Both the position numbers and the translations under genes were made by a program. Shown here in pieces: positions 34,688 to 45,612 of a DNA stretch of 64,000 nt. The stretch comes from Melioribacteraceae bacterium (GTDB lineage Bacteria > Bacteroidota > Ignavibacteria > Ignavibacteriales > Melioribacteraceae). The notes under the pieces are model-generated. The model was not told where the DNA came from and did no database searches. It saw nothing but the letters and a program-made list of their open reading frames with translations. The DNA lies in the NCBI GenBank assembly GCA_030584085.1, contig CP129490.1, forward strand, positions 3,319,511 through 3,383,510, in the 5' to 3' direction. Every line of letters starts with the position of its first letter. Positions within the stretch are counted from its first letter, which is position 1.

Positions 34688-36532
34688 TTAATCATTCAAC
34701 TTTGGCCAAAGCTTAAGAATAATTACAGAACAAATAATTACAACAATTGTTAGAATAATGGCAATAAGATATTGTGAATATAACCAATAACCTATAGACA
34801 TCAATAATCCATAAACTGCAATAACACCAAGAAACATCGCTAAAATTCCTAAAGGCAAATGAGATTTTGTTTCATCAGTTGAAAATATTTCCCCGTTACT
34901 TTCTGCTTTCTCAATGACTTTCTTCCAGCCAATTCCGCCTGGTCTAACAAGTTTATAGAAACTTAAAAGTTTCGATTCATCAGCCGGTTTTGTAATTAAT
35001 GTTACAATAATCCATGAGAACGTAGTAATGATCACACCTATCACTAACTCCTGATAACTTTTTAAAGCACCGATTTGCATAGCTGCGGTTTCTCTATCGA
35101 TTCCATTTTCAACGAGCAAGTTAATTTGCTCATTATGATAGTTACCTAAGAACAAAAAGAATAACGCAATTAAGAAAGAAACAACCATCGCGGTTAATTC
35201 GCTGTAAGCATTTATTCTCCACCAGAACCATCTAAGAATAAAAAGCAAACCTGTTCCGGCACCAATTTGAAGCAGAACATTGAAAGCGTTTAACGCGCTT
35301 TCCAAAAACAATGCGAATGAACTCGCTATTATCATCATTACTATTGTGGAGATTCTTCCTACAAAAACTAATTCCTTTTCACTGGCTTGTGGTTTTAAGA
35401 ATCTTCTATAAAAATCATTAACAACGTAAGAAGATCCCCAATTCAAACTTGTTGACATTGTTGACATATATGCGGCAATTAGAGAAGCTATAACTAATCC
35501 TAGTAAACCGCTTGGCAATAATGTTAACATTGCGGGATATGCCATATCATGTTTTATTATAGAATCATCAATATGAGGTAAAGCTTCTTTGATCATACTC
35601 AATTCGGGAAAGACAATTAACGAAGCTAACGCAACAATTATCCACGGCCATGGACGTAAAGCATAGTGAGCAAAATTAAAAAATAATGTTGCACCGACTG
35701 CATGTTTTTCATTTTTAGCAGCAAGCATTCTTTGTGCAATATATCCACCGCCGCCCGGCTCGGATCCGGGATACCAAACAGACCACCATTGAACTGCTAT
35801 TGGTATAATGAAAACCGTCAGAGCTAATTCCCAATTATTGAAGTCGGGAATTAAATCAAGCTTTCCAATTACATTTGGATGAGATAATAAATTTGAGAGA
35901 CTACCGATCTCAGGTAAACTGACTGCAACATATGCGGCAGTAATTGATCCAAACATTGCCAGTATAAATAAAATAAAATCTGTTATAAGTACGCCAAGCA
36001 ACCCGCCAAGTGAACTATAAATAACTGTAACACCGCCGGCTATTAAAATGACTTCAAGCGGAGTAAGATTTAACATCACATTACCAACTTTAATAGCTGC
36101 CAAAGTTACTGAAGCCATTATGACAATGTTGAAAAACATTCCAAGATATAATGCACGAAATCCTCTTAGAAATGCAGCAGGTTTGCCGCTGTAGCGTATT
36201 TCATAAAATTCAACATCAGTCATAACATCGGATCTTCGCCAAAGCTTTGCATAGACAAAAACAGTCAACATCCCGGTTAAAAGAAATGCCCACCAAACCC
36301 AATTACCGGCTATACCGTTTTGTCGAGTTATATCGGACACTAAATTTGGTGTGTCAATTGAGAATGTTGTTGCAACCATAGATACGCCGAGAACATACCA
36401 AGGCATATTTCGTCCGGAAAGAAAATATTCCGAAGAGTTTTTACCTGCTCTTTTAGTTGACCAAATACCAATCAACAACGCAAGCAGCATAAATGCAACA
36501 ATTGCAATCCAATCTATAGTTTGAAGAAGCAT
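34688..36532 (-). CDS. sodium:solute symporter (SSS family)
   Basis: A 614-residue protein with about 13-14 membrane helices. It shows SSS-family features: the EYFLSGRNMPWY start motif, GVSMVATTFSID after helix 1, the long helices around YSSLGGLLGVLITDFILF, and ASLIAAYMSTMSTSLNWGSSYV. Family members couple sodium uptake to import of sugars, amino acids, nucleosides or sialic acid. The WYPGSEPGGGGYIAQRML segment is typical of sugar-transporter-like members in this phylum. The substrate cannot be read from the sequence. The gene is transcribed away from the DUF72 gene. Confidence 0.87.
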   Translation of the reverse strand: MLLQTIDWIAIVAFMLLALLIGIWSTKRAGKNSSEYFLSGRNMPWYVLGVSMVATTFSIDTPNLVSDITRQNGIAGNWVWWAFLLTGMLTVFVYAKLWRRSDVMTDVEFYEIRYSGKPAAFLRGFRALYLGMFFNIVIMASVTLAAIKVGNVMLNLTPLEVILIAGGVTVIYSSLGGLLGVLITDFILFILAMFGSITAAYVAVSLPEIGSLSNLLSHPNVIGKLDLIPDFNNWELALTVFIIPIAVQWWSVWYPGSEPGGGGYIAQRMLAAKNEKHAVGATLFFNFAHYALRPWPWIIVALASLIVFPELSMIKEALPHIDDSIIKHDMAYPAMLTLLPSGLLGLVIASLIAAYMSTMSTSLNWGSSYVVNDFYRRFLKPQASEKELVFVGRISTIVMMIIASSFALFLESALNAFNVLLQIGAGTGLLFILRWFWWRINAYSELTAMVVSFLIALFFLFLGNYHNEQINLLVENGIDRETAAMQIGALKSYQELVIGVIITTFSWIIVTLITKPADESKLLSFYKLVRPGGIGWKKVIEKAESNGEIFSTDETKSHLPLGILAMFLGVIAVYGLLMSIGYWLYSQYLIAIILTIVVIICSVIILKLWPKLND

Positions 36533-36661
36533 GAGTGTAAATTTGTACTATAGAATTAAGAAATACAATAATATTTTGAAATAGTTAAGTAAGTTTGATG
36601 GAGTACAAAAATCATCGAATGATCATTTAATAATATCAATTAGAGTTGACAATAAATTTTT

Positions 36662-36691
36662 GTAAACGGTGAATTTCTTATATTCACTTTA
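36662..36691. promoter_or_regulatory. imperfect dyad in a divergent promoter region
   Basis: GTGAAT (36669-36674) and ATTCAC (36682-36687) are inverted around a 7-base spacer, and outer bases GTAAA/TTTAC extend the symmetry. It lies in the 223-base gap between the divergent symporter and DUF72 genes, so it could be an operator or an RNA hairpin. I saw nothing else definite in the gap. Confidence 0.35.
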
Positions 36692-36755
36692 CACTCTCGT
36701 ATAAATTAGTCGATCGAGAATTATTGATAAGAAATAACATAATATCTTCCATACA

Positions 36756-37634
36756 ATGAAAAATCTATATGTCGGAACAGCAGGTTGGTCATACAAAGAT
36801 TGGATCGGAAGTTTCTATCCGAAAGCACAATCAAGTGATTTTAATTGGCTGGAATATTATTCTCAATTTTTTAATTGTGTAGAAGTTAACTCAAGTTATT
36901 ATACTTATATCGATCCAAAGACTGTTAAGAGTTGGTTAACTCATATTTCCGACAAAACTGATTTTGTGTTTACAATTAAACTTCATCAAGATTTTACTCA
37001 TAAAAAAAATTCCACAAACGAAAATATTAAAGCCGTTAAACTTGTTTTAGATCAACTCTCAGACGAAGGAAAATTAGCCGGACTTTTAATTCAATTTCCC
37101 TATTCATTTTCTCTTGATAAAGCAAATGCAAATCACCTTAAAAAGTTAGTTGATACTTTTGCCGAATATGAAAAGTTTATTGAAGTAAGACATAAGTCGT
37201 GGTTTATCGATCGCTTTTTTGAGTTTGTCAGATCAAATAAATCTTCGTTATGTGTTATTGATCAACCTATGTTGGGTAAAGCAGTTGATTTCCAACCTAA
37301 CGTTATAGGTGATAATTTATATTTACGTTTTCATGGACGAAACGAAAAAGCTTGGAGTCAGTCAATTAAAAATTTTGGTAATAAACAGAATTATGAACAG
37401 CAAAGCGCGCGATATGATTATCTTTATTCACCCGGAGAGTTAATTGAAATGGATCAAAAACTGAAAGAAGTTATTGATACGGTAAACAAAGTTATTGTTA
37501 TTATGAATAATCATCCGCATGGCAATGCTGTTGCAAATGCACTTGAGTTATTACACATGTTGAGTGATAAAATGAAAGTTAATGTACCGGAGAATACTCT
37601 TAAAGCTTATCCGAGATTGAAGAAGATTTTGTAG
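36756..37634 (+). CDS. DUF72-family protein
   Basis: The N-terminal GTAGWSYKDWIGSFYP motif, the central FTIKLHQDFTH and LIQFPYSF stretches, the FIEVRHKSWF block and the C-terminal VIMNNHPHGNAVANALEL identify DUF72, a TIM-barrel family of unknown biochemical function (E. coli YecE group). The length (292) is slightly longer than the usual 240-280. No Shine-Dalgarno is obvious. Downstream paired hairpins separate it from the convergent dnaE fragment. Confidence 0.87.
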   Translation: MKNLYVGTAGWSYKDWIGSFYPKAQSSDFNWLEYYSQFFNCVEVNSSYYTYIDPKTVKSWLTHISDKTDFVFTIKLHQDFTHKKNSTNENIKAVKLVLDQLSDEGKLAGLLIQFPYSFSLDKANANHLKKLVDTFAEYEKFIEVRHKSWFIDRFFEFVRSNKSSLCVIDQPMLGKAVDFQPNVIGDNLYLRFHGRNEKAWSQSIKNFGNKQNYEQQSARYDYLYSPGELIEMDQKLKEVIDTVNKVIVIMNNHPHGNAVANALELLHMLSDKMKVNVPENTLKAYPRLKKIL

Positions 37635-37635
37635 C

Positions 37636-37687
37636 CGTCGGCTTCATGCCGACGATTTAGCAACAAAACGCAGACATAAAGTCTGCG
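37636..37687. repeat. twin palindromic hairpins between convergent genes
   Basis: Two perfect hairpins directly follow the DUF72 stop: CGTCGGC/GCCGACG (37636-37642, 37648-37654) and CGCAGAC/GTCTGCG (37669-37675, 37681-37687). The second is related to AGACATAAAGTCT at 54784-54796. They look like REP-type intergenic elements that can also act as terminators. Confidence 0.65.
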
Positions 37688-37699
37688 ACTACTCAACAA

Positions 37700-39394
37700 C
37701 TAAATATAAGCTTTCCTCAACTTCTCTTTTCCCAAAGAATTAACAAGATGAATTTCATCAACTGTCAGTTCTTTTTCCGGTTCACCGAAGAAGTCTTTGC
37801 TTGTTCTATCTTTCTGTGTTATTGATTGTGCTTTAACTGCCGAGAGAACTTCCATCTTTTCAACAATTATATTGTTACCGCTTTCTGCATCTACTTTTCC
37901 TTCAACTAAATACGGACCCATAGAAATTGTAAGCTCCGCATACTTCCGATACGCTTCGGGAAAAATTACCGCTTCAAACGTTTCGGTTTTATCTTCGAGC
38001 GAAAGAAATTTCATTATTCCGCCTTTGCTTGTCATCACCCGCTTCGATGCCATATACCAGCCGATCATTTTAATTTTTTTGTTGTGATACTTCTGCATAT
38101 CCGTAGCTTTTATAATATCTTTTTGGTTTACTTCATCAAAAAAATCTAATGGATGATGCGAAACCATGTAACCGAATATTTCGTATTCATTGTGACAAGT
38201 TTCCTCTATTCCGAATTCTCTGTCTATTTTAACTTCTTGTTCAAGTTTGCTTGTGTTGTTAACAAAAAGGTTCATGTTACTCTCTTCAAGCAGTTTTTTA
38301 TTGTAGAAATAAATATCGAGTAAACGGAGAAGTGTTGGACGTGTTTGTTTAAGTGAATCCATTGCGCCGCATTTTATTAATCGTTCCGCACTTTCATAAC
38401 CAAGATGAACACGAGAAAGAAAATCCGCGAGTGATGTAAATCGTCCGTTCTTTTTTCGTTCGTTTATAATTTTAGCGGCATAGCTTTGTTCAAAATTTTT
38501 AATGGCAATAAACCCTATTCTTACTTCCTTATCTTTCCCCGTATAATCGTACTCGCTTTCGTTTATGCACGGAAGAAGAACTTTTAATCCAAGGCGTTTG
38601 CATTCACTTATATAAACCGCAGACGAATAATATCCGCCGCCATTGCTAAGCACGCCTGCCATAAACTCGGCCGGATAATATGTTTTAAGATAGGCAACTT
38701 GGTAAGAAAGAATGGCAAACGATGCGCTGTGTGCTTTACAAAACGCATATCCTGCAAATGATTCTATTTGGTGCCACAGTTCTTTTGCGATTTTATCTTC
38801 GTAACCCTTTGCTTTACAGCCGGCAAAAAACTTATCAACTATTAATTGCATTGCTTTGTGCGAGCGCATCTTGCCGCTCATTGCACGGCGGAGTAAATCT
38901 GCTTCTTCCAAAGTAAGACCAACAATATGATATGCCACTTTAATTACATCTTCCTGATAAATCATAACGCCGTAGGTTTCACCAAGATATTCTTCCATTT
39001 CGGGGATTAGATATTTTCTTCGTGAAGGATTTTTATGCCGTTCAATAAACTCTTTCATCATACCGCTTTCGGCAACACCCGGACGAATAACCGAACTTGC
39101 TGCAGTAAGCATTTCAAAATTATCACAATTAAGTCTGCGCAAAAGTGAACGCATTCCGGGACTTTCAATATAAAAACAGCCGATAGTTTTTCCTGTTCGT
39201 ATTAAATCGTTTGTGGCTCTATCGGTAAAAACTTTTTCATAGTCGAACATATTAAAACCGGTTTGCTGAATAATTTGCGGCACTCTGTCAAAAATCCTCC
39301 CAATTTGGGGTGAATTAGGAAGTGCATATTGCGCCATATCCAGTAAAACCGGCTTGTTACTTTCGGGTAATTTATTGATATTTATAGTGAACAT
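37700..39394 (-). CDS. dnaE: C-terminal half (fingers, HhH, OB fold) of a split DnaE-type DNA polymerase III alpha
   Basis: From residue 72 (GCFYIESPGM) to the end, the protein matches the second half of the alternative DnaE proteins that accompany DinB: VIRPGVAESGMM, YGVMIYQEDVIKVA, LRRAMSGKMRSH, QIESFAGYAFCKAHSASFA, the helix-hairpin-helix zone (SLADFLSRV, KCGAMDSL) and a C-terminal OB fold (KIKMIGWYMASKR to MGPYLVEGKVDAESG). It has no PHP domain and no palm aspartates; these are in the + strand gene at 41539-43236. The first 48 residues do not resemble DnaE. The ATG at 39394 is preferred; a TTG lies 6 codons upstream. Together the halves make one complete polymerase, but whether they assemble is unknown. 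Confidence 0.85.
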   Translation of the reverse strand: MFTININKLPESNKPVLLDMAQYALPNSPQIGRIFDRVPQIIQQTGFNMFDYEKVFTDRATNDLIRTGKTIGCFYIESPGMRSLLRRLNCDNFEMLTAASSVIRPGVAESGMMKEFIERHKNPSRRKYLIPEMEEYLGETYGVMIYQEDVIKVAYHIVGLTLEEADLLRRAMSGKMRSHKAMQLIVDKFFAGCKAKGYEDKIAKELWHQIESFAGYAFCKAHSASFAILSYQVAYLKTYYPAEFMAGVLSNGGGYYSSAVYISECKRLGLKVLLPCINESEYDYTGKDKEVRIGFIAIKNFEQSYAAKIINERKKNGRFTSLADFLSRVHLGYESAERLIKCGAMDSLKQTRPTLLRLLDIYFYNKKLLEESNMNLFVNNTSKLEQEVKIDREFGIEETCHNEYEIFGYMVSHHPLDFFDEVNQKDIIKATDMQKYHNKKIKMIGWYMASKRVMTSKGGIMKFLSLEDKTETFEAVIFPEAYRKYAELTISMGPYLVEGKVDAESGNNIIVEKMEVLSAVKAQSITQKDRTSKDFFGEPEKELTVDEIHLVNSLGKEKLRKAYI

Positions 39395-39495
39395 TTGAAC
39401 ACTATAATACAAACTGATTATGAATGTTTCAAGAAGAAAAAATGGGGATTTTTGAGTGAAAAAGAAGAAAATGGGAGTCTTGGTCTCATAATGTC

Positions 39496-39525
39496 ATTCT
39501 TCTCCCAACCTGTCGGGGGAAGAAT
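39496..39525. repeat. intergenic palindrome upstream of the dnaE C-terminal half
   Basis: ATTCTTCTCCC (39496-39506) pairs with GGGGGAAGAAT (39515-39525) with one G-T type mismatch. It sits in the 197-base gap between the NYN gene and the split dnaE fragment, close to the presumed inversion breakpoint. The rest of the gap is AT-rich with no gene. Confidence 0.55.
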
Positions 39526-39591
39526 CTCACATTAAATTTTCCGGAAAACTTGGGAGTGAGATTTTCACAAAGTTCGCGGAGGTATAATAAG

Positions 39592-40215
39592 CTACCAATC
39601 TTTTGGTTTTACAATACTTGTTTTTGGTATTTGATGTGGAAGCTGAGAAGATTTAAGAACACCAGTTCTAACTCGTTTTACAAAATCGGCGTGCTGCATT
39701 AGTTCTTTGGAAGGATGACCTTTGCCTGGCATAACTAAGCCAAGCGTTTTATCAGGATGGTGAACTTTAACTAGTTTCATTGACTCAGCTAAATCACTAT
39801 CATTTGATACTACAACTGCACAATCATAATTATTTAACCATGCATCGTTGAGTAGATGAACTGAGATATTAACGTCCGAACCCTTTTCTTCAGTTTTTAT
39901 AATCTTGACAGTTCGCTTATCGTTCTCAGGCTTTGCCAAAGGAACATAGACTTCATGAGTTAAAAAGTGACCATAATAAATTTCTATCTCAGGAATGTAT
40001 TCTTTTAATGCCCGCAAAAATGTCTGTTGTTTAATTGGTTTTTGTGAATTGTATTTCCCGGAGACCAGCGCTGTAAAATATTTTATTTGAACGATCTGAT
40101 TATGAGAAGCAAGTAATTTTTGAAAAAGGGATTTGAAATCAAGCCATTTGTAAGGAGTGTTTTTAACAGCACCGTAATAAAAATTGAAGCCATCAATATA
40201 AATTATTGTTCTCAT
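39592..40215 (-). CDS. NYN-domain (PIN-like) putative RNase
   Basis: A 207-residue protein of the NYN/LabA-like group. The N-terminal IYIDGFNFYYG carries the first acidic residue (D8), and later acidic positions include KGSDVNISVHLL and SNDSDLAESM, forming the PIN-like metal site. A basic tail (KTSIVKPKDW) follows. Families of this fold cut RNA. A leader containing two hairpins and a T-tract precedes it. It lies between the two dnaE halves and divergent from dinB. A link to DNA damage tolerance is only positional. Confidence 0.85.
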   Translation of the reverse strand: MRTIIYIDGFNFYYGAVKNTPYKWLDFKSLFQKLLASHNQIVQIKYFTALVSGKYNSQKPIKQQTFLRALKEYIPEIEIYYGHFLTHEVYVPLAKPENDKRTVKIIKTEEKGSDVNISVHLLNDAWLNNYDCAVVVSNDSDLAESMKLVKVHHPDKTLGLVMPGKGHPSKELMQHADFVKRVRTGVLKSSQLPHQIPKTSIVKPKDW

Positions 40216-40242
40216 TTAGCTTTGATTATATATAAAAAAGCA

Positions 40243-40286
40243 AGCCCGCCGGAGGCGGGCTGCGCCCTTGGTCGAAACCAAAGGGG
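40243..40286. terminator. two hairpins with a - strand T-tract in the NYN leader
   Basis: AGCCCGCC/GGCGGGCT (40243-40250, 40254-40261) and CCCTTGGT/ACCAAAGGG (40265-40272, 40277-40285, with a bulge) lie between divergent genes. On the - strand the first is followed by TTGCTTTTTT, a canonical intrinsic terminator, only 28 bases before the NYN start codon. It may be an attenuator or the relict terminator of a displaced gene. Confidence 0.6.
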
Positions 40287-40380
40287 TGGTTAAATCCAAT
40301 ACAAATTTATAAATATTTAGTAAAATATTCAAGTAATTAAATGTACAACATAATTTTATTCTTGTTTTTCGGTAATTGTT

Positions 40381-41529
40381 ATGAAAACAATATTTCACTT
40401 AGATATGGACGCATTTTTTGTTTCGGTTGAACGAAATTTAGATCCTTCACTAGAAGGTAAGCCGGTTATTGTCGGCGGTAGTCCTAAAAGTGGGCGCGGA
40501 GTTGTGGCTGCATGCAGCTACGAAGCACGTGCTTACGGACTTCATTCTGCAATGCCAATTAAAACTGCTTATCGATTATGTCCGCATGGAGAATATATTC
40601 GCGGGCATGGTAAAGAATACAGCCGTTACTCAAAAGCTGTTAAAAGAATTTTAGAAAAATATTTCCCAACTGTTGAACGTGCTTCTATTGATGAGTTTTA
40701 TCTTGATTTTACCGGTTGTGAAAAAATGTACGGTCATCCCGAAGAGTTTGCAAAAAAAGTACAGAGCGAAATTTGGCATCAGCTTCATCTTCCGTGTTCT
40801 ATTGGGATTTCAAGTAATAAATCGGTTTCAAAAATTGCATCTGATTATAGAAAACCGAAAGGAATAACTTTTGTCCCGCATGGAAAGGAAAAAGAATTTT
40901 TAGCGCCTCTCCCAATTGAAAAAGTACCCGGTATTGGAAAGGCAACTTTCCCACTCTTACGTTCACGGGGATTTAAGACAGTCGGTGATATTGCAAACGC
41001 TCCACAAGATTATCTTACAACTTTACTGGGCAAATACGGCATTGCACTTTGGGAAAAAGCCAACGGAGAAGGAAGTACACATTTTTCAACCGACCACGAA
41101 CGTAAAAGTATTTCGAAAGAGACAACTTTTGGCGAAGATATTGTTAATAAAGAGAAAATCGAATCCATTCTTTTTGAATTGGTAGAAGAAGCATGTCAAT
41201 TACTGCGAAACGAAAATTGGCAGACTTCAACCGTTTCTATAAAACTGCGCTATTCGGATTTTGTAACGTGGACTCGCTCTAAATCATTACAAGCAACGGA
41301 TGACGATAAAACAATTTATAATGTAGCGGTTGATCTTTTCCGCAAGGCATATACACGCAGAGTTGGTGTGAGACTTATAGGAATTCACTTAAGCAAGCTT
41401 GAACATTTTACAGAACAAGAATTACTCTTTGAAGACGAAGAAACAATTAGAAAAAGAATGCTGAGAGCAGTAATGAAAATCCGCGACAAGTTTGGCTTTG
41501 ATGTAATCCATATGGGCAGAAATGTTTGA
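40381..41529 (+). CDS. dinB: Y-family DNA polymerase IV
   Basis: A translesion DNA polymerase. The palm motif HLDMDAFFVSVE carries the first catalytic aspartates, and ASIDEFYLDFTG carries the second acidic pair. GISSNKSVSKIASDYRKPKG and the helix-hairpin-helix VPGIGKAT follow, then a little-finger domain (SISKETTFGEDI). At 382 residues it is full-length for DinB. Its stop lies 9 bases before the DnaE N-terminal fragment, so the two are co-transcribed, as in the known dinB-dnaE cassettes of Bacteroidota. I found no convincing LexA box upstream. Confidence 0.93.
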   Translation: MKTIFHLDMDAFFVSVERNLDPSLEGKPVIVGGSPKSGRGVVAACSYEARAYGLHSAMPIKTAYRLCPHGEYIRGHGKEYSRYSKAVKRILEKYFPTVERASIDEFYLDFTGCEKMYGHPEEFAKKVQSEIWHQLHLPCSIGISSNKSVSKIASDYRKPKGITFVPHGKEKEFLAPLPIEKVPGIGKATFPLLRSRGFKTVGDIANAPQDYLTTLLGKYGIALWEKANGEGSTHFSTDHERKSISKETTFGEDIVNKEKIESILFELVEEACQLLRNENWQTSTVSIKLRYSDFVTWTRSKSLQATDDDKTIYNVAVDLFRKAYTRRVGVRLIGIHLSKLEHFTEQELLFEDEETIRKRMLRAVMKIRDKFGFDVIHMGRNV

Positions 41530-41538
41530 AGATCAAAA

Positions 41539-43236
41539 ATGATAACACTACACACACATTCAAATTACTCTTTGCTTCAAGGGACAATTCCTATTGAAGA
41601 ACTTATTTCTTTTGCAAAGAAAGATGGGAATCAATACGTCGCCTTAACGGACACAAATGCGATGTACGGACTTATTCAATTTGCTAAACTTGCTCAAGAA
41701 GAAAATATCAAACCAATACTTGGTGCATTGATTGATGATCCGATTGATAAGAATTTATCTGCAATTTTTCTTGCAAAAAACAATACGGGTTATTCGCATC
41801 TTTGTAAAATTATCACTACAAGAAAATTAAAAGACGATTTCCGCTTAACCGATTTATTTATCGAACCACTCGAAAATTTGTTCATAATTACATCATCTAT
41901 CGAACTTCTTAAGCGAATCAAATTAACAGACCAACTTCGCTCAAATTTATTTGTTGAGCTAATCATCACATCAAATCAGAAACGAAGAACGCGTGAACTT
42001 TATGATTTTGCAAGAACAAAAAAATTGCAGATAGTTGCTACACATCCAGCTTATTTCTTAAAGAAAGATGATTTTATTCTGCATAAAACTGTCACTGCCA
42101 TCAGACTTAATACCACAATCGATAATCTCAGCAAAGATGAACTGGTTGATGAAGAGTATCACCTGAAAACCAGCGATGAATTAAAACAAGAATGGCGGTC
42201 CTTGCCCGAAGCATTATGGAATGCCGAACGAATTGCTAAAAATTGTAATGTTGATTTAGAGTTTAGTAAATATAAGTTCCCCGTTTTTCCACTTCCCTCA
42301 ACGGAAACTGCTTTCTCGTTTTTATGGAAAATATCATTCCATGGATTGGAGAAAAGATATCAACCAATTACAGAACAAGCTGTTAAGCGATTGCAATACG
42401 AGTTGGAAGTTATCGACGAAATGGGTTTTTGCGATTACTTTTTGATTGTGTGGGATATAATTCGTGAAGCAAAAAATCGCGGTGTTATGCATATCGGAAG
42501 AGGTTCTGCAGCTAATAGTTTGGTTTCATATTGCCTTGGTTTCACAGAGGTCGACCCAATTAAATACAATTTTTATTTTGAAAGATTTCTAAACCGCGGA
42601 AGATTTTCTCCGCCGGATGTTGATCTTGATTTTTCTTGGAAAGAGCGCGACGAAATCATAAAGTATGTTTTTGATAAATATGGCTATAATAAGGTTGCAA
42701 TGATTTCAACTATGGTAACATTCAGGGCGCGGTCTGCTTTTCGTGAAGTTGCAAAAGTATTCGGAATTTCACAAAACGAAATTTCTACTTATAGTAAATT
42801 CATACCTTGGACAAGCGCAAAGAATCTTGATAAACTTTCTGAAAAATTTCCCGAATCAAAATCGCTCAACTTTGAAAACGAACCGTGGAAAACAATTATA
42901 AAAATTGCATCAAAGTTATCTCGTTTTCCTCGTCATTTAAGCATTCATCCTTCGGGAATTGTAATCACTAAAGAACCAATTACAAATTATCTTGCGTTGG
43001 AATATGCAAAAAACAAGGGACTCGGATTAATTATTACGCAACCGGATATGTATCCAATCGAGGATTATGGATTAATAAAAATTGATTTATTAAGTCAACG
43101 CTCAATCGGTGTGTTCAAGGACGCGATGAATACAATCAACAATAATTTTAGTGATGATGTGAAAATCGAAGATGTTGAACCGGCGAAGAAGAACTTATAT
43201 TTGATTAAAACAAAAAACCCGCCTACAACTATTTGA
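41539..43236 (+). CDS. dnaE: N-terminal half (PHP, palm, thumb) of a split DnaE-type DNA polymerase III alpha
   Basis: The PHP domain begins ITLHTHSNYSLLQG with the metal-binding H5 and H7. The polymerase palm has GRGSAANSLVSYCLGF, PDVDLDF (359-365; D360 and D362 catalytic) and the third catalytic aspartate D516 in LIKIDLLSQRS. The protein stops 49 residues later, where intact family members continue into the fingers. The last seven residues (KNPPTTI) are encoded by an intrinsic terminator hairpin, and the TGA sits in its loop. The missing fingers, HhH and OB fold are encoded on the other strand at 37700-39394. Alone this half should not polymerise DNA. No intein motifs are present. Confidence 0.88.
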   Translation: MITLHTHSNYSLLQGTIPIEELISFAKKDGNQYVALTDTNAMYGLIQFAKLAQEENIKPILGALIDDPIDKNLSAIFLAKNNTGYSHLCKIITTRKLKDDFRLTDLFIEPLENLFIITSSIELLKRIKLTDQLRSNLFVELIITSNQKRRTRELYDFARTKKLQIVATHPAYFLKKDDFILHKTVTAIRLNTTIDNLSKDELVDEEYHLKTSDELKQEWRSLPEALWNAERIAKNCNVDLEFSKYKFPVFPLPSTETAFSFLWKISFHGLEKRYQPITEQAVKRLQYELEVIDEMGFCDYFLIVWDIIREAKNRGVMHIGRGSAANSLVSYCLGFTEVDPIKYNFYFERFLNRGRFSPPDVDLDFSWKERDEIIKYVFDKYGYNKVAMISTMVTFRARSAFREVAKVFGISQNEISTYSKFIPWTSAKNLDKLSEKFPESKSLNFENEPWKTIIKIASKLSRFPRHLSIHPSGIVITKEPITNYLALEYAKNKGLGLIITQPDMYPIEDYGLIKIDLLSQRSIGVFKDAMNTINNNFSDDVKIEDVEPAKKNLYLIKTKNPPTTI

Positions 43237-43247
43237 AGGCGGGTTTT
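43214..43247. terminator. intrinsic terminator overlapping the dnaE fragment stop
   Basis: A perfect 11-bp stem, AAAACCCGCCT (43214-43224) and AGGCGGGTTTT (43237-43247), is symmetric in its A/T tracts and can stop both the + strand dnaE fragment and the - strand serC that ends at 43258. The TGA stop of the dnaE fragment (43234-43236) abuts the 3' arm. Confidence 0.85.
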
Positions 43248-43257
43248 AGAATTATGC

Positions 43258-44343
43258 TTAATTATTTTTCTTAAAATCTTTCATGAATTCGACAAGCGCT
43301 GCAACGCCTTTTGTTGGGAATGCATTATAAATTGATGCACGAATTCCGCCGACAGATCTGTGACCTTTCAATCCGCTGAACCCTTTTTCTGAAGCTTCGG
43401 CAATAAATTTCTTTTCTAATTCTTCCGAAGGCAAACGATATGTTACGTTCATTAAAGATCTGTCTTCTTTTACAACTGTACCTTTATAATATCCGTCGCT
43501 TCCGTCTATATAATCATAAAGAATGGCTGCTTTTTCTTTATTGATTTCATACATCTTATCTAACCCGCCAAGATTTAATAACCACTTGTAAACCAATCCC
43601 ATTATATAAACCGAATAAGTTGCGGGAGTATTGTAAAGTGATTCGCCTTCAACATGAACTTTATAATTGAGATAAGTATGAAGTGAATCCGAACTTCTTT
43701 CAAGCATATCTTTTCTAATAATTACAAGAGCAACACCGGCAGGACCCATATTCTTCTGAGCGCCCGCATAGATTAAAGCATATTTGTTTACATCAATTTT
43801 TTTGTGAAGCATATCGGAAGAAGTATCACAAACTAAAGGTACAGAACCGACTTCCGGTTCAGTCTTGTATTGTGTTCCGAAAATTGTATTGTTGGAAGTA
43901 TAGTGAACATATGATGCATCCGGATCTAACTTCAATTCTTCTTGTTTAGGAAGTCTAACAAACTTTTCTGCTTCGGTTGAACCGGCAATATTAACGGTAC
44001 CGACTCGTTTTGCTTCTTTAACTGCTTTCTTTGCCCATGTACCGGTTACAATATAGTCGGCTTTGTTTTTGGGAGGCATTAAGTTTAACGGAACCATAGA
44101 AAATTGGAGAGTAGCTCCGCCTTGTAAAAACAATATTGCATAATCATCACTGATGTTTAATAACTTTCTTAAATCAGCTTCGGCACCTTTGAAAATTCCG
44201 TCATATACTTTTCCACGGTGACTCATTTCCATAACATTCATTCCGGTGCCTTTGTAACTTAGCATATCTTCTTGTGCTTCTCGTAAAACTTCTTCGGGTA
44301 ATATTGCGGGACCCGCGCTGAAATTATAAATTCTGTTTGACAT
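43258..44343 (-). CDS. serC: phosphoserine aminotransferase
   Basis: A class V PLP aminotransferase for serine biosynthesis that converts 3-phosphohydroxypyruvate to phosphoserine. The start NFSAGPAILPEEVL, the PLP lysine K197 in YAGAQKNMGPAG, FLQGGATLQFS, TSNNTIFGTQ and the C-terminal GLKGHRSVGGIRASIYNA match SerC across 361 residues, the usual length. It follows the DUF1015 gene by 30 bases. This DUF1015-serC pairing, often with serA, is conserved in many anaerobes and suggests the DUF1015 protein acts in the same pathway. No serA is seen here. Confidence 0.95.
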   Translation of the reverse strand: MSNRIYNFSAGPAILPEEVLREAQEDMLSYKGTGMNVMEMSHRGKVYDGIFKGAEADLRKLLNISDDYAILFLQGGATLQFSMVPLNLMPPKNKADYIVTGTWAKKAVKEAKRVGTVNIAGSTEAEKFVRLPKQEELKLDPDASYVHYTSNNTIFGTQYKTEPEVGSVPLVCDTSSDMLHKKIDVNKYALIYAGAQKNMGPAGVALVIIRKDMLERSSDSLHTYLNYKVHVEGESLYNTPATYSVYIMGLVYKWLLNLGGLDKMYEINKEKAAILYDYIDGSDGYYKGTVVKEDRSLMNVTYRLPSEELEKKFIAEASEKGFSGLKGHRSVGGIRASIYNAFPTKGVAALVEFMKDFKKNN

Positions 44344-44373
44344 AACTTTATTCCTTTTTTTAATAACTACGAA

Positions 44374-45612
44374 TTAATCTATAGCGTGAACTAAAAGACC
44401 GTCTCTTAATTTTGGTTCGAACCAAGTTGATTTTGGCGGCATAATTTCACCTGCATCGGAAATATTAATTAAATCATCTACCGAAACGGGGTACATAGAA
44501 AATGCGATCGATGCTTTTCCTTCGTTAACTAATTTTTCAAGTTCTTCCGTACCTCTTATTCCGCCAATAAAATCGACATTAGTATTTGTGCGAGGATCAT
44601 CAATTCCAAACAGCGGACTTAAAACATAGTTTTGTAAAATACTTACATCCAAATTTTCGCCAATACTCTCACCGGGTTTTACATTTTCATTTGGTTTTAA
44701 TAAATACCATTTCTTTTTATAGTACATACAAATGCTTCTTCTTTCAGGTGGATTCGGATTATCTGTTTCCTCAACTGAGAAATTCTCCTTTAACATATCC
44801 ATAAAGTTTTTTTGTAATCCCCGTGGAAATTCAAATACAACTCTATTGTATGGAAGAATTTTCAATTGCTCTGCCGGGAATAAAACTGCCATGAAGAAAT
44901 TATATTCTTCATTCCCGGTATGACCGACATTGTTTTCTTTCTTAACCTTTTGTGAACGGCTTGCACTTGCGGCTCTATGGTGTCCGTCTGCAATGTAAAG
45001 ACTTTCAACCTTGTCCAATTCAAAAATAATAATATCATTAAAGTCATCAGGAACTTGCCAAACTGTATGACGAACTCCGTCAGGTGCAGTAAAATCATAA
45101 AGAGGATCATATTCATTGATTGTTTTATCAACAACTTCGTTTACTTCAGGAACACCTTTATAAGTTAAGAAGACAGCACCTGTTTGTGCTTCAGTTGTAA
45201 CTATATGATTGGTTCTATCATCTTCCTTAACTTTTCTAGTCTTCTCATGCTTTTTGATGACGTCGTTATCATAATCGTCGGCTGAAAATGTTGCAGCGAT
45301 ACCTGTCTGTACCTGCTCTTTCCATTTCAATTGATAGATATAAAAATGAGGTTTTTCATCTTGAAGAAGGGGTGCTTCTTTGCGCAATCTTTTCCAATTT
45401 TCTTTTGCTTTAAGATAAACTTGATCCGAGTACGGATCTGTTTTCGCTTCAAGTTCTATTTCTGATCTGGTAACTCTTAAAAAACTTAATGGATTACCTT
45501 TTGCAAGTTCAGCGGCTTCTTCTCTGTTAACAACATCATAAGGAACACTTGCAACAAGGTGTGCAACATTTTCATCGGGTCTAACTGCTTTAAATGGTCT
45601 TATTACAGCCAT
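44374..45612 (-). CDS. DUF1015-family protein of the serine biosynthesis neighbourhood
   Basis: A 412-residue cytosolic protein with the family signatures PFKAVRPDENVAHLVASVPYDVVN at the N-terminus (given here only to mark the block), LYIADGHHRAASAS in the middle and FSMYPVSVDDLI near the C-terminus. The invariant HH pair suggests a metal or catalytic site. The biochemical role is not established as far as I know. Close linkage to serC is widespread, so a role in serine or phosphoserine metabolism is a reasonable guess. The start follows a short leader, and the gene is first in the operon. Confidence 0.88.
   Translation of the reverse strand: MAVIRPFKAVRPDENVAHLVASVPYDVVNREEAAELAKGNPLSFLRVTRSEIELEAKTDPYSDQVYLKAKENWKRLRKEAPLLQDEKPHFYIYQLKWKEQVQTGIAATFSADDYDNDVIKKHEKTRKVKEDDRTNHIVTTEAQTGAVFLTYKGVPEVNEVVDKTINEYDPLYDFTAPDGVRHTVWQVPDDFNDIIIFELDKVESLYIADGHHRAASASRSQKVKKENNVGHTGNEEYNFFMAVLFPAEQLKILPYNRVVFEFPRGLQKNFMDMLKENFSVEETDNPNPPERRSICMYYKKKWYLLKPNENVKPGESIGENLDVSILQNYVLSPLFGIDDPRTNTNVDFIGGIRGTEELEKLVNEGKASIAFSMYPVSVDDLINISDAGEIMPPKSTWFEPKLRDGLLVHAID

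Follow-up and report, generated by a model that had tools for sequence, protein, structure and literature searches.

We analyzed a window of 64,000 bases (bases 3319511-3383510 of the single-contig, 3.74 Mb genome of Melioribacteraceae bacterium, assembly GCA_030584085.1, contig CP129490.1) in which a DNA polymerase III alpha-type polymerase (DnaE) is encoded by two separate genes. One gene, here called the palm half, encodes the PHP, palm and thumb domains, while the other, the fingers half, encodes the fingers, the helix-hairpin-helix (HhH) and the OB fold. The features of the locus are listed in Table 1. An earlier sequence-only reading of this DNA had placed the two halves on opposite strands, and we found both open reading frames (ORFs) intact and with the assigned domain content. 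Pfam identified PHP (3.9e-23) and DNA_pol3_alpha (1.1e-81) and nothing else in the palm half, and DNA_pol3_finger (7.7e-38) and HHH_6 (5.1e-24) in the fingers half, where the matches to OB (5.4e-6; 26.7 vs 27 bits) and HHH_3 were below the curated cut-offs. The same reading was correct about the three catalytic aspartates, the 49 residues from Asp516 to the C-terminus (565-516) and the position of the palm half behind dinB. The fingers half could alternatively start at a TTG (ORF 37700-39412, minus strand, 570 aa).

Table 1. Features of the split polymerase locus (window positions)
Feature	Position	Strand	Description
Palm half (N-terminal chain)	41539..43236	+	ATG start, 565 aa; PHP, palm and thumb with Asp360, Asp362 and Asp516
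Palm half end			Palm helix after the third Asp, then a variable tail, residues 537-565
Fingers half (C-terminal chain)	37700..39394	-	ATG at 39394, 564 aa; fingers, HhH and OB fold
Fingers half layout			30-45 residue N-terminal extension, fingers, HhH with candidate clamp motif (NMNLF), OB, conserved C-terminal tail
Fingers-half N-terminal extension	39260..39394	-	About residues 1-45; unaligned with intact relatives; candidate docking segment
Fingers-half C-terminal tail	37703..37822	-	About residues 525-564; conserved in the split order, aligns poorly with intact relatives
Predicted LexA operator	39385..39404	.	TAGTG-N10-CACTA palindrome overlapping the fingers-half ATG at 39394
dinB-type Y-family polymerase	40381..41529	+	Ends 9 bases before the palm half
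NYN-domain gene	39592-40215		Between the LexA operator and dinB
DUF72 gene	36756..37634	+	Adjoins the fingers half; candidate partner

Against solved structures, the palm half matched Taq DnaE as far as residue 636, and the match of the fingers half began at residue 628. These limits leave little, if any, of the core unaccounted for, and they agreed with the earlier placement of the cut at the palm/fingers boundary. In the alignment with intact Bacteroidota relatives, the palm half stops within the helix that follows the third aspartate (LLSQRSLGVLRDTM...), and the next segment (...FDIYDYxxLFxDxxTxxLIRxGxTIGCFYIESP) opens the aligned part of the fingers half, a continuity suggesting that the core is complete or nearly so. 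Together the two halves hold the PHP, the palm with three aspartates, the thumb, the fingers, the HhH and the OB in C-family order, spread over two chains rather than placed on one polypeptide. About 40 residues remain after the OB fold and gave no Pfam match; on this basis the fingers half has no C-terminal domain there. DnaE2, the error-prone group, is likewise without a C-terminal domain after the OB fold (PMC3919608). New to the fingers half are an N-terminal extension (30-45 residues) and a C-terminal tail (~40 residues), the latter conserved within the order. The palm-half tails are ~0-30 residues long, and a KIFxI-like motif was seen by eye in many of these short tails in two families and in few in a third. 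The palm half of the window ends in residues (43147-43233) that the near relative G002 does not share, its ORF ending earlier at a TAG. No Hint domain or intein halves were found at the junction by Pfam or in the alignment of the extension, and Rfam detected no intron in window positions 36500-44500.

Both halves were found to be conserved. Comparison of the window with G002 gave ratios of nonsynonymous to synonymous substitution rates (dN/dS) of 0.057 (palm half) and 0.075 (fingers half), which are rough values since dS was near saturation (1.6 and 1.0, respectively). The purifying selection that the sequence-only reading had proposed to look for was thus detected in both. Asp360, Asp362 and Asp516 were invariant in all the sequences examined (31/31 split and 10/10 intact). 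Across split and intact sequences together, the invariant columns numbered 41 in the palm half and 70 in the fingers half, one cut-off fingers half being left out of the count. The LF of the candidate clamp motif was kept in 32/32 fingers halves. We also modeled the halves as single chains with AlphaFold, using alignments of 41 (palm half) and 39 (fingers half) rows, and obtained confident models for both. The palm half had a mean predicted local distance difference test score (pLDDT) of 91.1 and a predicted template modeling score (pTM) of 0.89, and the fingers half had a mean pLDDT of 80.4 and a pTM of 0.77, with residues 1-32 and 527-564 below 50. Foldseek matched the palm half to Taq DnaE (3e0d; template modeling (TM) score 0.85 by query length) and the fingers half to the M. 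tuberculosis polymerase 7pu7 (TM score 0.68 by query length) and, with the same score, to 3e0d. In the PHP site, the conserved DH pair is lost (TDTN vs TDHG in Taq), which makes proofreading by this domain unlikely. The palm half changed faster than the fingers half in family f3 (G026-G037, 71 vs 84% identity; G024-G035, 58 vs 71%).

To describe the distribution of the halves, we used 164 genomes of the order, with one row per genome and half and with second fragments of one gene merged into the first. Matches at or below 36% identity were taken as replicative DnaE, judged by identity and frame length rather than by a tree, and were left out. The presence counts and the search for a fused ORF apply to the matches listed, among which a fused gene of this lineage should rank at the top. 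The palm half occurred in 103/164 genomes and the fingers half in 104/164; 93 had both, 10 the palm half only, 11 the fingers half only and 50 neither (Fisher p 2.6e-21). Among the 66 better assemblies (at least 95% complete, at most 200 contigs), 44 had both, 1 the palm half only, 2 the fingers half only and 19 neither. No fused ORF of this lineage was found among the matches listed for the 164 genomes, since the largest open frames were 665 codons for the palm half and 628 codons for the fingers half. The sequence-only reading had suggested that a single inversion would restore a normal dinB-dnaE operon, and the lack of such a fused gene among these matches spoke against it. Its proposal to look for the same split in relatives was borne out by the 93 genomes with both halves and by family f54, described below.

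The halves were arranged in many ways in the 93 genomes. They were on different contigs in 52 and more than 10 kb apart on one contig in 6; five of these six are single-contig chromosomes, in which 477 kb to 3.3 Mb separates the halves. The linked pairs were divergent as in the window (16), convergent (3) or in tandem, led by the fingers half in 11 and by the palm half in 5. These varied arrangements fit with function in trans. A search of a named genome collection gave 5 loci only. Viral contigs gave no locus with one fingers-half protein as the query and 3 loci with the alignment as the query, while the plasmid search returned relatives below 60% identity only, the best being 43% among the matches listed.

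We searched for the fingers half in 391 genomes sampled from the class. Five genomes of family f54 had a short ORF of this kind, with frames of 587-606 codons in four and a contig-end piece in one. At these loci the palm half was apart from the fingers half in 3/5 and not found in the fetched stretch in the other two, and in G467 the palm-half frame was interrupted. Most matches of families f51, f13 and f57 had long frames, and both matches of f56 carried an internal stop. All 15 loci fetched from f51, f13 and f57 had one ORF matching both halves; it was 1028-1065 codons long in 14 of them and 847 codons in one that was cut at a contig end. The closest intact relatives found lie within the same phylum and class. 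In a tree of 54 proteins, for which the split halves were joined end to end, the 31 split proteins (29 of the order and 2 of f54) formed one clade with a Shimodaira-Hasegawa-like approximate likelihood ratio test (SH-aLRT) value of 99.2, indicating that the gene was cut once, before the last common ancestor of the order. The intact gene of family f13 follows dinB closely, and in 3/4 loci (L343, L345 and L350) the two are separated by a DUF72-like ORF (25-29% identity); this layout may be near the ancestral operon. The intact DnaE2 of family f51 follows a gene of at least 1200 codons (mostly cut by the stretch), without a dinB match (L338-L342, L346, L347, L349 and L352).

The LexA operator predicted at the start of the fingers half is a new observation, previously unremarked for this locus. 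The genome has exact matches to TAGTG-N10-CACTA at only two places: one lies at the fingers-half start, and the other immediately precedes the lexA ATG. There are two operators upstream of lexA, the second copy with one mismatch. The LexA of this genome has 211 residues and matched TIGR00498 at 227.5 bits (cut-off 110.95). The fingers half thus has its predicted operator in common with lexA, as a member of the LexA regulon would. No such LexA box was found in the recA stretch of this genome.

We then asked how general the operator was. In a first survey, 31 of 32 fingers-half loci had it with at most 2 mismatches. A weight matrix was built from those 31 loci, which therefore score by construction, and 58 further loci served as an independent test. 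Of these, 45 scored at least 15 bits and 48 at least 12 bits, and a mononucleotide-shuffled control gave 0 hits at 15 bits in 770,675 bases. The combined survey covered halves with open frames of at least 500 codons, namely 95/104 fingers halves and 91/103 palm halves (92 palm halves qualified, and G427 was excluded because it begins at a contig end); for 41 palm-half and 37 fingers-half loci, the status was carried over manually from the earlier surveys. A LexA box was present near the start of 83 of the 95 fingers-half genes. Among the 12 without it, G361, G348 and G387 had only ~100-210 bases upstream.

The palm half behaved differently, with an upstream LexA box in only 21 of 91. Nineteen of these had the box because they are divergent to or behind a fingers half. 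G394 and G424 also had a boxed palm half; in their short contigs the fingers half is missing, and the distance of the box is that of divergent pairs. The upstream stretch of the palm halves was mostly at least 3.5 kb and was below 1.3 kb in five (G017, G419, G317, G363 and G328). None of the 51 unlinked palm halves examined had a LexA box in the available stretch, four of these stretches being shorter than 1.3 kb. For 48 unlinked genomes both halves could be examined; in 47 of them only the fingers half was boxed, and in G381 neither was. In G012 the two halves share a strand and the box lies between them.

The surroundings of the palm half varied. A dinB gene was found near it in the window and in 19/40 further loci, and near the fingers half in G005. 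The DinB of the window matched DNA polymerase IV (PRK02406, 329.7 bits, cut-off 256) and has LDMDAFF and SIDEFYLD, which we take to be motifs of the active site of a presumably active polymerase. A conserved KIRDKFG..I..G at the C-terminus of DinB resembles the RecA-NT motif by eye. ImuA was absent among the ORFs of 33-48 kb in the window, the stretch to which this search was confined. In G026, of family f3, the palm half lies behind IMP dehydrogenase-like (guaB), glycosyltransferase-like and PurD-like genes, as read from the sequence, and several other f3 genomes have ORFs of matching size. The palm half of G025 and that of G005 follow a second LexA paralogue (LexA2), identified by Pfam (PF01726 and PF00717) in G025 and by eye in G005, and an ORF of the same size occupies the same place in G027, G029, G412 and G382. 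LexA2 has an operator of its own, ACCATACAAATGTATGGT, at 7/7 loci checked, one with a mismatch. This operator was found upstream of the palm half in 10/90 loci, and an eleventh match, in G033, was before the fingers half. G033 and G381 (genus g31) have the LexA2 operator at the fingers half in place of the LexA one, while G005, G027 and G029 have the LexA operator on the fingers half and the LexA2 operator before the palm half. The genome of the window also encodes a LexA2 (207 codons, ~1916 kb, L327), and its sole LexA2 operator lies in front of that gene, which is followed by a small gene and by one that by eye resembles an O6-methylguanine-DNA methyltransferase gene. The other LexA2 paralogue loci are L105, L106, L107, L119, L126 and L127.

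Two neighboring genes are also of note. At the position of the NYN-domain gene, several relatives instead have dinB directly divergent from the fingers half, and the NYN-domain gene may have cut dinB and the palm half of the window off from LexA control. No known operator was among the palindromes before dinB of the window. At the relatives' loci L098, L101, L105 and L119, DUF72-like genes were seen by eye upstream of either dinB or the palm half. DUF72 has also been noted beside PolB2 (PMC11791011), and it may partner translesion polymerases in general.

The best supported reading of these comparisons is a two-chain, DnaE2-like polymerase of the group linked to a DinB-type partner. We consider it likely that the two chains form a non-covalent accessory polymerase that was cut once and whose fingers chain is supplied by the SOS response in most of the genomes examined. 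The same genome has a separate DnaE (a 1150-codon frame at ~985 kb), so the split polymerase is most likely an accessory enzyme, and a non-essential DnaE2 role is consistent with this second DnaE. The two chains would meet to form one active site, to which the palm chain would supply the metal-binding catalytic aspartates and the fingers chain the parts for the incoming nucleotide and the DNA, the clamp motif, the HhH and the OB fold. Since the parts of the active site are divided, neither chain should polymerize alone. In the model of the ImuA-ImuB-DnaE2 system, the Y-family partner contacts both PHP and HhH (PMC12926913). Here the two domains belong to separate chains, so DinB could also bridge the chains. 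The complex would have a translesion role.

The regulatory step of the proposal is supported by the predicted operators. LexA, if it binds at the start of the fingers gene, would withhold the fingers chain until damage. The palm chain, where unlinked, would come from dinB, LexA2 or housekeeping operons that have no LexA operator, and in some genomes it would perhaps be made constantly and await the fingers chain. Upon DNA damage LexA would be relieved, the fingers chain made and the polymerase completed. Whether assembly itself acts as an SOS switch in this way, with a LexA-free palm chain and a LexA-held fingers chain, we consider an even question; the two LexA paralogues of G005, G027 and G029 would then form an AND gate on mutagenesis.

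Several observations weigh against this proposal. Operators with at most 1 mismatch occurred at 3 places in the genome of the window vs 4 in a reversed control, so that only their positions are informative. No LexA box was found in five tandem arrangements with sufficient upstream sequence (G316, G319, G353, G374 and G375), in four genomes of genus g31 or at the five f54 loci, which means that LexA gating is not universal. The dinB-palm operon of the window has neither a LexA nor a LexA2 operator. In the draft genomes "unlinked" mostly means different contigs, and distance is thereby unproven. One half only was found in 21/164 genomes, many of which are fragmented. Of the three such genomes among the better assemblies, G411 has its fingers half 494 bases from a contig end, and G149 and G331 stand as exceptions. 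The between-genome distances of the two halves correlated only moderately (Pearson 0.48; 1/2000 permutations as high). Local alignment of the DinB C-terminus with the RecA N-terminus of the same genome was no better than shuffles (303/1000 as high) and so gave a RecA-binding motif there no support.

The sequence-only reading had left a choice between a broken mutasome polymerase and a two-chain polymerase without an intein. The first was unsupported and the second well supported: the same cut is found across the order and in f54, the genes are rearranged, the halves are conserved, and there is neither a Hint domain nor an Rfam intron. That reading had also counted an intact dnaE elsewhere, together with degenerate or unexpressed halves, as evidence against itself; the intact dnaE exists but the halves are not degenerate. 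Decay or remodeling of the polymerase, for example into a palm half with a PHP or DNA-binding role and a fingers half acting as a clamp- or ssDNA-binding factor, could account for the lost DH pair of the PHP site and for the faster palm half in some f3 pairs such as G026-G037. We consider it improbable, since the three catalytic aspartates are kept in every split sequence examined, the 70 fingers-half columns are invariant across split and intact proteins, the halves co-occur and dN/dS is far below 1. A normal dinB-dnaE operon that had been inverted in assembly, or broken in this strain alone, would explain the opposite strands in the window. The probability of this is negligible, because the halves are separate in 93 genomes, lie far apart on five single-contig chromosomes, have the divergent layout in 15 other genomes and carry new conserved termini on the fingers half. 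For the group as a whole, the arrangements across genomes rule out an assembly inversion or a recent break.

It is also very unlikely that the chains are joined post-translationally or by RNA trans-splicing through an unknown mechanism. The cut is clean and the extension is about as long as a C-intein, but there is no Hint domain and no Rfam intron at the locus. The palm tails, moreover, do not reach the length of an N-intein, and a conserved intein end is missing from the extension. We rejected joining by an intein or an intron on the Pfam scan and on the Rfam scan of positions 36500-44500. The alternative that leaves the two-chain polymerase in place is ordinary SOS control of the fingers half, with the palm half induced otherwise, by LexA2, read-through or unknown sites. 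The LexA2 operators before palm halves, the LexA-like gene preceding the palm half in G025 and G005, and a possible damage cleavage of LexA2 would fit this, whereas f3 genomes such as G026, in which the palm half lies behind guaB- and purD-like genes without either operator, and the lack of a LexA box in the available stretch before each of the 51 unlinked palm halves examined do not. We regard this alternative as possible, though doubtful.

To our knowledge, C-family polymerases are single chains, apart from those rejoined by inteins. The nearest precedent to the two-chain polymerase proposed here is the split B-type polymerase of Methanobacterium thermoautotrophicum, reportedly the product of two genes in the 1999 work of Kelman; it belongs to another polymerase family and to an archaeon, and we know of no SOS control of it. 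The cyanobacterial split DnaE is rejoined by intein halves, and its cut point lies elsewhere than here. It is similar in that DnaE comes from two separate genes (PMC3919608), but the enzyme described here is an accessory one without an intein. A survey from 2013 assigned DnaE1 and DnaE2 to one Ignavibacteria genome and reconstructed fragmented sequences where relatives were intact (PMC3919608). Associations of DnaE2, PolY and RecA are known in Bacteroidetes (PMC12926913). The DnaE2B-PolY-RecA system described there resembles the present locus in having an accessory C-family polymerase beside a DinB-type one, and here dinB adjoins the palm half as its predicted Y-family partner; it differs in having a one-chain polymerase, and the link to RecA is not established here. 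The ImuA-ImuB-DnaE2 mutasome is similar in its LexA control, which is predicted here, and in its combination of C-family and Y-family polymerases (PMC12926913, PMC8565304). In Bacteroidetes, imuA-imuB-dnaE2 is controlled by a different LexA with other motifs (PMC8565304). The present system differs from this mutasome in its Pol IV-like partner, in having no ImuA seen adjoining, in its two chains and in an operator that is mostly on one of them. In a literature search limited mainly to open-access papers, without preprints, we found no report of a split DnaE2.

Split systems of this kind could escape surveys in which fragmented polymerases are reconstructed or truncated ones left out (PMC3919608, PMC12926913). 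The palm/fingers cut has been kept through the order and beyond, which would mean that the enzyme can assemble in trans, and the natural cut offers a tool for studying which contacts build the active site. A mutagenic polymerase can be kept off by repression of the whole enzyme or, as in Pol V, through cleavage of a partner. LexA acting on one half, if true, would be a new way to do so, in which a piece of the enzyme is withheld.

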